Below, piece after piece: positions 11,367 to 14,284 of a stretch of 64,000 bases of DNA. The stretch lies in contig NZ_CP042466.1 in the NCBI RefSeq assembly GCF_008330225.1, forward strand, positions 3,156,001-3,220,000. Direction: 5' to 3'. The notes below the pieces were generated by a model. It had not been told where the DNA came from. It was given only the letters and a program-made list of their open reading frames with translations, and did no database searches. This DNA comes from Geobacter sp. FeAm09 (lineage in GTDB: Bacteria > Desulfobacterota > Desulfuromonadia > Geobacterales > Pseudopelobacteraceae). Position 1 is the stretch's first letter. Every line of letters begins with the position of its first letter. A program made the translations under genes and the position numbers.

Positions 11367-11395
11367 TTGACGCGGGGAGATTTGTCCTCTATAAT
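11367..11395 (+). promoter_or_regulatory. Sigma-70 promoter driving the riboswitch transcript
   Basis: TTGACG at 11367-11372 and a consensus TATAAT at 11390-11395, separated by 17 bases. The transcript would start near 11402, about 25 bases before the aptamer. Confidence 0.85.
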
Positions 11396-11425
11396 GTCGC
11401 CTGTTTCAGCATCAGGCAGCAGATA

Positions 11426-11503
11426 CGCGACAAGACTAAACCACCCGCGAGGGTGGGGCGGAAAGCCCATAGGGTCTCACTGAGACAGCCGGGATGCCGA
11501 ACT
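11426..11503 (+). ncRNA. GEMM-I riboswitch aptamer, GEMM-Ib (cGAMP-type) features
   Basis: The conserved GEMM core is readable: CUAAACC (11435-11442), a hairpin capped by a GCGA tetraloop (ACCCGCGAGGGU), GGGGCGGAAAGCCC, AGGGUCUC, GAGACAGCCGGG, AUGCCGAA. Aligning on the invariant AAACC to the Vc2 c-di-GMP riboswitch puts an A at position 20, where c-di-GMP-selective aptamers have G; A20 marks the Geobacter GEMM-Ib class that prefers 3',3'-cGAMP. The 3' part of the aptamer overlaps the left arm of a terminator, so ligand binding should prevent termination (an ON switch). Class call is strong; ligand choice rests on one position plus overall similarity. Confidence 0.92.
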
Positions 11504-11532
11504 ATCACCATATTCGGCGTCCCGGCTTTTTT
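11488..11532 (+). terminator. Expression-platform terminator of the riboswitch
   Basis: GCCGGGATGCCGAA (11488-11501) pairs with TTCGGCGTCCCGGC (11513-11526; one mismatch/wobble) and is followed by T6 (11527-11532). The left arm is part of the aptamer's 3' strand, which makes the two structures mutually exclusive. Confidence 0.9.
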
Positions 11533-11585
11533 CGTGCCGGGATGCCGGAGACGCACGGCAGCTCCAATCACGAAAGGAAACGAAC

Positions 11586-11873
11586 ATGAACAGGTATGGC
11601 ATGAAAGCAATCATCGGGGCAGTGGCCGGGACAATGACGATGGCAACCGTGGCCGGCGCGGCCGACGTGGCGGTGGGAGTCGATGCCAACACCCCCAACG
11701 TGCGGGTGCAGGTCGGCACGCCGGCACCGCCGCCGCCCCCCCTTGCCCCCCGCACGGTCATTGTGGAGCGGGAGCGCGTCATCACCCACGAACGGGGAGA
11801 ACGGCACGACCGGGGCAAACACAAAGGGCACTACAAGAAACACCACCGTAAGGATAAGCACCACCGGGATTAA
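11586..11873 (+). CDS. Small exported Pro-rich, His/Lys/Arg-tailed protein under riboswitch control
   Basis: 95-residue protein of unknown function. Residues 1-25 form a signal peptide (MKAIIGAVAGTMTMATVAGA). The mature part begins ADVAVGVDANTPNVRVQVGTPA, has a run of five prolines, then a highly basic tail of alternating His, Lys, Arg and Asp (HHRKDKHHRD end). The tail could bind metal, haem, nucleic acid or polyanions; none is shown. GAAAGGAAACGAAC supplies the ribosome-binding site. It is the only gene downstream of the riboswitch before the convergent gene at 11940, so it is the likely regulated product. Confidence 0.85.
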   Translation: MNRYGMKAIIGAVAGTMTMATVAGAADVAVGVDANTPNVRVQVGTPAPPPPPLAPRTVIVERERVITHERGERHDRGKHKGHYKKHHRKDKHHRD

Positions 11874-11939
11874 TCCCCGTCACGGGGCCGGGCTGCAGCG
11901 GGAACGCAGCCCGGTCCGCGCACAACGCCGGCCGGCGCC

Positions 11940-13172
11940 TCAGACCGGCCGCAGGGTGGTCACGACCCGCACCCCTGCCGTCAAGGTGCGGTGCACCGGG
12001 CAGCGCCCGGCGATCTCCAGCAGACGCTGCCGCTGCGCCTCGTCCAATTCCCCCCGCAGTTCCACTTCCCGTTCGAAGGTATCCAACCGGCGTTCCTTCT
12101 CGTCGCAGTCACGGCAATCATCGGCGTGGACCTTGCGGTGCGACAGCCGCACCACCACCTCTTCCAGCGGCCACCCCTTGCTGCGCGCATACATCCGGAG
12201 CGTCATCCCCGTACAGGCGCCCAGGGCGACCAGCAGGTAATCGTAGGGGGAAGGCCCCTCGTTGCCGCCGCCGTCCGCCACCGGTTCGTCGGCCACCAGG
12301 GAAAAACCGTCGGCAAACAGCTCGGTGCGAAACCCCGCCGCCCCGGTGCGGGCCGTCACCCGGCTGTCGGCTGCCTCCGGCGGGGCCTGGGAGGGGACCG
12401 GCGTCTCGGGCACCCCCAGGTAACGGCCAGCCCAGGCGGCGATGATCCCGCCGGCGTAGCGGGAATCCCGGCTGTCGGACAGCAGATGGTCGGCCGAGTC
12501 GAGGGAGACGAAGCTCTTGGGGTGGGGGGCGGCCCGGTAGATGTCGGTGGCGTTGTCGATCCCCACCACCTGGTCCCCGGGGGCGTGCATCACCAGCAGC
12601 GCCGCCCTGAGCCGGCGCAGCGTATCCTCCGGGTGATGGGCATCCAGGTCGTCCAGCAGGCTCTTGCGGATGGTGAACGTGCGGCCGGCGATGGTGACGG
12701 TGCCCTGCCCGGTTTCCTCGATCCGCTCCGCCGCCTCTCCCAGCAGATCCCACACCTGGACCGGCCGGAACGGGGCGGCGATGGCCACCACGGCGGCGGT
12801 CGTGGGGATCTCGGCCGCCGCCGCCAGCACGGCCGCCCCCCCCAGGGAATGGCCGATGAGCAGCCGCGGGGCCTCATACTCCTGTTCCAGGAAACGGGCC
12901 GCCGCCACCAGGTCGCTCACCTCGGAGGAAAAGGTGGTGGCGGCAAACTCCCCCTCGCTCTCGCCCAGGCCGGTGAAGTCGAAGCGCAGCACGGCGATGC
13001 GCCGGCTGCTCAGGGCGCGGGCGATGTGCACCGCCGCCGTGAGATCCTTGGAGCAGGTGAAGCAGTGGGCAAACAGGGCGTAGGCCAGGGGCTGCTCGTC
13101 CTCGGGGAGTTCCAGCCGGGCGGCGAGCCGTTCCCCCCGGCTGTTGGCAAAGGTTATCCTCTTGGTGTTCAT
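11940..13172 (-). CDS. Alpha/beta hydrolase fused to OsmC-type peroxidase domain
   Basis: 410-residue two-domain protein. Start at 13172 (MNTKRITF) has GAGGTG 6-8 bases upstream. Residues ~1-250 are an alpha/beta hydrolase: GLGESEG loop, nucleophile elbow GHSLGG, HAPGDQVV and late His (SADHLL). Residues ~265-410 are an OsmC/Ohr-like domain with both redox cysteines (LGACTGMTL and GRCPVHRTL). OsmC proteins reduce organic hydroperoxides via these cysteines. Such fusions are known in several bacteria, suggesting ester hydrolysis and peroxide removal on one chain. It lies 29 bases after the ADP-ribosylglycohydrolase-like gene, probably co-transcribed. Confidence 0.92.
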   Translation of the reverse strand: MNTKRITFANSRGERLAARLELPEDEQPLAYALFAHCFTCSKDLTAAVHIARALSSRRIAVLRFDFTGLGESEGEFAATTFSSEVSDLVAAARFLEQEYEAPRLLIGHSLGGAAVLAAAAEIPTTAAVVAIAAPFRPVQVWDLLGEAAERIEETGQGTVTIAGRTFTIRKSLLDDLDAHHPEDTLRRLRAALLVMHAPGDQVVGIDNATDIYRAAPHPKSFVSLDSADHLLSDSRDSRYAGGIIAAWAGRYLGVPETPVPSQAPPEAADSRVTARTGAAGFRTELFADGFSLVADEPVADGGGNEGPSPYDYLLVALGACTGMTLRMYARSKGWPLEEVVVRLSHRKVHADDCRDCDEKERRLDTFEREVELRGELDEAQRQRLLEIAGRCPVHRTLTAGVRVVTTLRPV

Positions 13173-13201
13173 CCGCATCACCTCGTTTTTTCTCTGCGAC
13201 G

Positions 13202-14284
13202 TTATGGTGTGCCGATACCCGCGGCCAGGTCGGCGGCCAGCCGGCACAGGGCGGCGGAATCCTCCAGGCCGTCCAGAAAGCGCTGCGGGATCCGGGAGAG
13301 GCCGACCTGGGCACCCACCAGGGCCCCGGTCAGGATGGCCCGCGCCTGGTTCTGCCCGCCGCCGTTGACGGCATGCAGCAGGGCCGCTTCGAAATCGTCG
13401 GGGAAACGGGCCGCCAGGTAGTAGGCCGCCGGCAGTTGGTGGTAGATCGCGCAAGGCATGCCGTAGACGATGGACACCTTCCAGGCCGGTTCGATGCGGA
13501 TATCCGGGTCGGCGGCCGCGCTGGCCATGTACGACGGGGTCAGCAGGGCGTCGGGGGAGGCGAACCTCCCGGCCCGGGGCGGATCGGGGTCGCCGGGCCG
13601 TGGCGGCTGCAGGTTGTCGCCGGTGACGGCGTGGAAGGGGAGCGCCCCGCTATGCACCAGCTTCATCAGCCGGCCCGACAGCCGGGCATCCAGGGGGTGC
13701 CCCTGCACCAGTTGCCCCAGCACCGCACCGTAGGCCACGGTCATGGACACCACCGTATCGTCCGACTGGGTGAGGACGGCATTGCCGGCAATGGCGCCGG
13801 CCAGCCGGGCGGGGTCCTGGGCGTAGCGCACCCCCAGGGCCAGGGTGCGTTCGATGGCCTCCGTCGTGTCGGCATGGCCGCCGGTCTCGCCCCAGGGACG
13901 CCCCTGCTCCACGCGCCGCCGCCACAACTCGCGGATCGACTGGCTGGTGTACCCCCCCGGCCCGCTGATGGGGGTGCCGTCCAGGAGCGGCAGCAGTTCT
14001 CCGTCCATGCGGCGGCAGAAATCAGCCTCGTCGTACCCGCCCCGCTCCACCAGCGACGCGACCAGCAGCCTGAGGATGAAGCCGGCCTGGGAGAGCTGGC
14101 CGGCCGTGCAGCCGTCGTGGTAGCGGCCGGGCCGGGGATCGGTGTAGCCGCTGATCCATTCGCCGTAGTCGCGGCGCAGTTCGGCAAGGTCGTAATACCA
14201 GTGCGGCCCGAGCCCCAGGGCGTCGCCGATGAAAGCGCCCATGACGGCCCCGGCCCCACGGTCCTGTATGGTGGCGGCGGACAT
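13202..14284 (-). CDS. ADP-ribosylglycohydrolase-family protein with altered metal motif
   Basis: 360-residue protein of the DraG/ARH fold. Start at 14284 (MSAATIQDR) has AGGAGG 6 bases upstream. The N-terminal GAFIGDALGLG motif and a central DDTVVS motif are kept, but the C-terminal motif that usually reads GGD-[ST]-D (magnesium ligands) reads GGQNQ (VNGGGQNQARA), followed by a normal GALVGAQVG. Classic members remove ADP-ribose from proteins using two metal ions; loss of the acidic pair suggests a different reaction or an inactive binder. First gene of a two-gene unit with the hydrolase-OsmC fusion. Confidence 0.82.
   Translation of the reverse strand: MSAATIQDRGAGAVMGAFIGDALGLGPHWYYDLAELRRDYGEWISGYTDPRPGRYHDGCTAGQLSQAGFILRLLVASLVERGGYDEADFCRRMDGELLPLLDGTPISGPGGYTSQSIRELWRRRVEQGRPWGETGGHADTTEAIERTLALGVRYAQDPARLAGAIAGNAVLTQSDDTVVSMTVAYGAVLGQLVQGHPLDARLSGRLMKLVHSGALPFHAVTGDNLQPPRPGDPDPPRAGRFASPDALLTPSYMASAAADPDIRIEPAWKVSIVYGMPCAIYHQLPAAYYLAARFPDDFEAALLHAVNGGGQNQARAILTGALVGAQVGLSRIPQRFLDGLEDSAALCRLAADLAAGIGTP

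Follow-up and report, generated by a model that had tools for sequence, protein, structure and literature searches.

A GEMM-Ib-type riboswitch upstream of a gene for a small, probably exported cationic protein in an Oryzomonas-like genome

Results

Organization of the locus

The window analysed here is a stretch of 64,000 nucleotides from the genome deposited as Geobacter sp. FeAm09 (contig NZ_CP042466.1, positions 3,156,001 to 3,220,000). The features located in it, all on the forward strand and numbered from the first letter of the window, were the following:

11367..11395, + strand: sigma-70-type promoter, with -35 TTGACG (11367-11372) and -10 TATAAT (11390-11395) separated by a 17-base spacer
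11425..11501, + strand: GEMM-I aptamer (RF01051), located by Rfam at 42.3 bits; in model R1 the span is 11413-11511, including outer P1
11435, + strand: A at the G20 equivalent, the mark of GEMM-Ib, from the Rfam alignment (consensus column G)
11487..11532, + strand: intrinsic terminator, a 15-pair stem (11487-11501 / 11513-11527) with a T run, whose left arm is the 3' strand of the aptamer
11573..11578, + strand: candidate ribosome-binding site AAAGGA, 7 bases 5' of the ATG, read from the sequence
11586..11873, + strand: ORF of 95 amino acids (aa), a small cationic protein with a Pro5 run and a His/Lys/Arg tail, called from sequence, alignment and pN/pS
11586-11660, + strand: putative Sec signal peptide, the first 25 residues

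Promoter, aptamer, overlapping terminator and one short ORF, all of which a preliminary description of this DNA had called intact, were each located within 11367-11873. The promoter agrees with the consensus at 11 of 12 bases, and one such element was found compared to a mean of 0.1 in shuffled sequences; a similar promoter precedes the orthologous switches, the pattern being present at 18 of the 20 loci examined. The next ORF (OsmC/hydrolase, 11940-13454) is on the strand opposite to that of the 95-codon ORF and runs the other way, and a single gene is therefore the most likely target of the switch. This bears out the earlier claim of a single short target, the export of which is predicted. 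A strong GC-rich hairpin that lacks a T run is found 3' of the stop codon of the 95-aa ORF (window 11871-11945).

The aptamer and its position 20

The aptamer matched RF01051 (c-di-GMP-I) with a score of 42.3 bits against a cut-off of 35 (E 6.7e-5), and this was the sole Rfam match at gathering score within the 64-kb window. Model R1 also returned one aptamer site in the window, a site that belonged to its own training set. Comparison with the Rfam GEMM models, which the preliminary description had proposed as a check, placed RF01051 above its cut-off and confirmed the A claimed for the position-20 equivalent, read at 11435 in the alignment. We take the alignment column at 11435 to be position 20 in the numbering of Vc2. 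This call agrees with the report that an A20G change in Gmet_0970 switches selectivity from cGAMP to c-di-GMP (PMC6456294, in excerpt).

The nine A20-type aptamers of this genome were aligned with eight others that precede genes for relatives of the 95-aa protein, 17 in all. A at position 20 was invariant (17/17). The written consensus structure had 96.6% of cells paired, compared to 35-51% when it was slid, a figure favoured by the structure having been read in part from the same 17 aptamers; pairs changed on both sides numbered 5, against 0-3 when slid. The weakest helix was the outer P1, kept in 83.8% of cells. Both the covariance score, which exceeds the curated cut-off, and the retention of the consensus helices in relatives place the RNA in GEMM-I. 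Its assignment to the GEMM-Ib (cGAMP) type by the A20 mark is well supported by the sequence, and the ligand would very probably be cGAMP.

Terminator and folding

The terminator stem is unbroken over its 15 pairs, and the T run reaches 11532; a generic terminator scan with a loop limit of 8 did not list this stem. The region 11367-11540 folded with a z of -5.41, and none of 200 shuffled sequences was equally stable. Energy folding without ligand does not pick the aptamer, and forcing the written pair list costs 12-39 kcal/mol; as such folding includes neither ligand nor tertiary contacts, this cost is a caution and not a test of the aptamer. A rival helix was also seen, in which the 5' leader (11405-11417) can pair with the aptamer 3' strand (11487-11501) and so compete with both aptamer and terminator; it is not kept at locus L022.

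The 95-aa protein

Nineteen of the 30 C-terminal residues of the 95-aa protein are His, Lys or Arg, and if cleavage occurs after residue 25 the mature part has a pI of 10.3 and no Cys; a CxxCH motif, sought in the protein as a sign of a c-type cytochrome, was not found. Comparison of the ORF with five relatives gave pN/pS values of 0.21-0.38, which indicate purifying selection. An alignment with 18 relatives displayed a core VGVDVxTPNVRVQVG, a Pro run, ERERVIV and a DxGKHKGHYKKHKKH tail.

Searches of Pfam and NCBIfam with the protein gave no match up to E 1; the 19 aligned family members gave scattered weak matches in the same databases and fell in no named family. A PDB sequence search gave one weak match (E 0.66). 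AlphaFold2, run with a 21-row alignment, returned an unusable model (pLDDT 58.5, pTM 0.17) with a single helix at residues 3-23; a disordered chain behind a signal peptide would be expected to give such an output, while a poor model in itself proves nothing. We regard the product as probably disordered, cationic and rich in histidine, and located in the periplasm or at the cell surface. Our best guess for its function is the binding of an anionic surface, polymer or metal, as a surface- or mineral-binding polycation.

Distribution of the protein and its switches

In a first search, the 95-aa protein was compared with 57 genomes at E ≤0.01, and 31 of them (its own included) were matched, some of the weak matches being non-homologous; L045, L047 and L048, which look unrelated or cut, were rejected as relatives. 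An Rfam GEMM match was found near eight of the 29 loci from other genomes, and these eight, like the one in the window, all have A at position 20.

A second search used the 19-row alignment at E ≤0.001 against 112 genomes of the order that are at least 90% complete, again including the genome of origin. Sixty of the 112 were matched, giving 70 rows at 69 places (one gene gave two rows), and a protein peculiar to the host genome is thereby ruled out. When the 69 places were scanned with R1, 19 had a same-strand match no more than about 110 bases before the ORF. The other 50 genes have no adjacent switch (one place begins at a contig edge); the family is therefore wider than the switch, and the protein can work without it. 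The 19 switch-bearing places comprise 13 of a close form and six of a divergent form, the latter recognized by GYxPAPPGVHIYY and GRPYYVEN followed by a His/Lys tail. A search with one divergent-form protein matched 57 of the 112 genomes (68 rows); in 17 of the 30 of these loci that were scanned R1 matched within 220 bases upstream, six of them being already among the 19. A20 aptamers thus lie directly upstream of 30 distinct genes of this protein type (19 + 11), and position 20 was A in all 33 aptamers read near family genes, three distant ones included. Since the relatives share ancestry, the 30 genes are not independent events; the divergent form also occurs in a different family of the order, which suggests more than a single event.

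R1 also matches G20 aptamers (11 matches in the host genome), and it matched in 106 of the 112 genomes, about ten times per typical genome. At that density, we calculate that chance would place a match in the 250 bases before any one gene in well under one case per thousand. Four loci were not counted as switch-bearing: L161, where another ORF intervenes and the R1 match lies about 1.1 kb upstream, and L210, L215 and L217, where the distance is at least 484 bases. In the named genomes, relatives are encoded at 28 loci. A switch is present at nine of these, including the loci of Oryzomonas japonica Red96 and Pelotalea chapellei, and at least five of the nine are the same DNA as loci already counted.

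The overlapping terminator stem, with 11-15 paired positions and a T-rich tail, was present in all 13 switches that precede the close form. Near the divergent form, an ungapped terminator test found only 7-8 paired positions in 18 of 20 switches; at one such locus, L137, a longer bulged stem is readable by eye. A lipoprotein-like gene (SGCGGGGSS, ITDKQSDDF), which we take to resemble DUF4382, was seen 3' of the switch-bearing small gene at L137 and between the R1 match and the small gene at L161. At L196, L197, L199, L200, L202 and L203 R1 gave a further match, a cut one, some 1.5 kb past the small gene.

The tail was also found outside the family. Four exported-looking proteins (L100, L102, L104 and L106, near 1926-2264), from an Aliarcobacter MAG, a Thiobacillus MAG, Crenothrix and a gammaproteobacterial MAG, have a D-N/R-GKHKGHYK tail in common with it, although their N-terminal parts are quite different, which gives the tail the look of a module. 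An R1 scan of these four loci found no switch.

GEMM-I RNAs and cyclases in the host genome

The genome at hand (G000; 4,099,068 bases) is Oryzomonas-like and not Geobacter in the strict sense, because the DNA at this locus in G002, a genome placed in the same genus, is that of O. japonica Red96. It has 18 RF01051 matches over the cut-off, with A at position 20 in nine (L010-L018, the one in the window being L015) and G in the other nine (L001-L009). The remaining A20 aptamers score 35.3 to 49.2 bits, and these eight precede six genes:

fibronectin-III lipoprotein, behind tandem aptamers (lipoprotein call by eye from the N-terminal sequence)
L,D-transpeptidase lipoprotein, behind tandem A20 aptamers (lipoprotein call by eye from the N-terminal sequence)
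exported protein with CxxCH motifs (export call by eye)
OmpW-like barrel
117-aa exported-looking protein with no Pfam family, behind L010 (G000:C1:1279400-1279475; export call by eye)
ORF of at least 465 aa with no family

The products of five of the six look exported or envelope-bound. Two of the G20 aptamers (L001 and L004) stand in tandem at G000:C1:2391292-2391521, the nearer one above the cut-off of RF03168 (c-di-GMP-I-UAU), and L002 and L003 fit RF03167; several GEMM-I subclasses are thus present within one genome.

GGDEF matches number 30 in this genome, L075 and L078 being pieces of one gene. Three loci (L061, L063 and L067) have Ser in the GHxxGS motif, which we take to be the Hypr selectivity site, and these three proteins are candidate Hypr cyclases by that residue; no motif was found at six of the 30 loci. 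The best PDB match of L061 was 6d9m (236 bits), presumably the structure of GacA. This GacA-like, Ser-bearing sequence makes it likely that the genome encodes a Hypr cyclase that makes cGAMP. In L073 the residue read as the selectivity site is Thr, and in both L063 and L073 the motif ends GGDEY.

Discussion

The explanation that we consider probable, as a whole, is that the locus carries a GEMM-Ib transcriptional ON switch, responsive to cGAMP, which controls one gene for an exported cationic protein. When no ligand is bound, RNA polymerase would complete the terminator at 11487-11532 and transcription would stop. Once a Hypr GGDEF cyclase, for which the GacA-like protein of the host genome is a candidate, had supplied cGAMP, this ligand would bind during transcription, the aptamer would retain its 3' strand, and the terminator could not form; read-through would then allow the 95-aa protein to be made and exported, possibly for use by cells attached to Fe(III) minerals. 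We infer the direction of switching from a known case: for G. metallireducens pilM, formation of the terminator is reported to preclude the cGAMP-bound aptamer and vice versa, the ligand turning transcription on (PMC9262584, in excerpt), and the layout is the same here, as the left arm of the terminator is the 3' strand of the aptamer. In G. sulfurreducens, deletion of gacA is reported to lower the genes behind GEMM-Ib switches (PMC6456294, in excerpt).

The GEMM-Ib class was reportedly defined in 2015. With the Geobacter switches of pgcA (GSU1761), Gmet_0970 and pilM the present one shares the common GEMM-I fold, A20, a terminator stem that takes in the aptamer 3' strand and a probable Hypr cyclase in the genome; it differs from them in its single small, probably exported target, which has no haem or pilin features, in its Oryzomonas-like host and in that its ligand is deduced. 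GEMM-Ia (c-di-GMP-I) switches, including those of RF03167 and RF03168, are alike in overall architecture and have nine G20 members in the host genome, but theirs is G at position 20 where the window aptamer has A, and the latter passes the cut-off of RF01051 alone. The switches of the relatives fit RF03167 best, yet at 36.7-49.6 bits they remain under its cut-off of 59.

Other readings of the locus were weighed against a cGAMP-responsive switch. The mechanics of the ON switch could be the same with an aptamer that is bispecific, or mainly responsive to c-di-GMP in the cell. Both cGAMP and c-di-GMP are reported as ligands of the OmcST switch (PMC6456294, in excerpt), and A20 alone therefore does not settle selectivity; moreover, in a G. 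metallireducens strain with high c-di-GMP and less cGAMP several predicted cGAMP targets are reported to have risen (PMC12285248, in excerpt), and among the 30 GGDEF matches of the present genome (two of them one gene) only three have Ser in the motif searched. Against this, all 33 aptamers read near family genes have A, while nine of the 18 aptamers of the host genome have G, and so lasting a choice of A by this type of gene speaks for a distinct ligand. We consider a bispecific or c-di-GMP-led aptamer unlikely.

Far less probable, in our judgment, is an aptamer that no longer switches, the terminator always winning or the leader helix deciding, with the gene regulated otherwise. Computed folding strongly favours the terminator, and before that the leader helix, and the Rfam score is just 7 bits above the cut-off; but the other A20 aptamers of the genome score likewise (35.3 to 49.2 bits), relatives inside and outside the genus retain both aptamer and terminator, and the leader helix is absent from L022. 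That the ORF is not a gene, or that the switch serves another gene, is scarcely credible: the product is small, of low complexity and outside any Pfam family, but the pN/pS values reject a chance ORF on grounds of selection, protein matches occur in 60 of 112 genomes, and the next ORF (OsmC/hydrolase) is oppositely oriented.

The preliminary description had also called the protein an unusual product for this class of switch, and this holds in part. The target is indeed neither a cytochrome nor a pilus gene. However, five of the six genes behind the other A20 switches of the genome have exported- or envelope-looking products, this type of protein stands behind A20 switches at 30 genes, and hypothetical genes are known as targets in G. 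sulfurreducens, where those reported for cGAMP include transpeptidase lipoproteins and "multiple hypothetical genes" (PMC6456294, in excerpt). Such targets are non-cytochrome and envelope-related, and the host genome has a counterpart in the L,D-transpeptidase lipoprotein behind its A20 aptamers. As far as checked, a small exported target is in character for A20 switches, and what is new is the recurrent cationic family without a name. A literature search for Oryzomonas together with riboswitch found no paper, the GEMM-Ib target lists of 2015 being outside the comparison.

cGAMP signalling in Geobacter and its relatives is treated mainly by way of cytochromes, pili and polysaccharides in the excerpted reports (PMC6456294, PMC9262584, PMC12285248). 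A broader idea, which we offer tentatively and regard as rather doubtful, is that the His/Lys-tailed exported proteins form a dedicated non-cytochrome output of cGAMP across the Geobacterales. They would be disordered polycations, either displayed on the cell surface or released as cells settle on minerals, and their genes would have come under A20 switches in at least two lineages. A small target of one gene, found repeatedly behind A20 switches in the order, would make a clean reporter of the cGAMP pathway. It also draws attention to a protein family that has gone unstudied and that may assist life on minerals.
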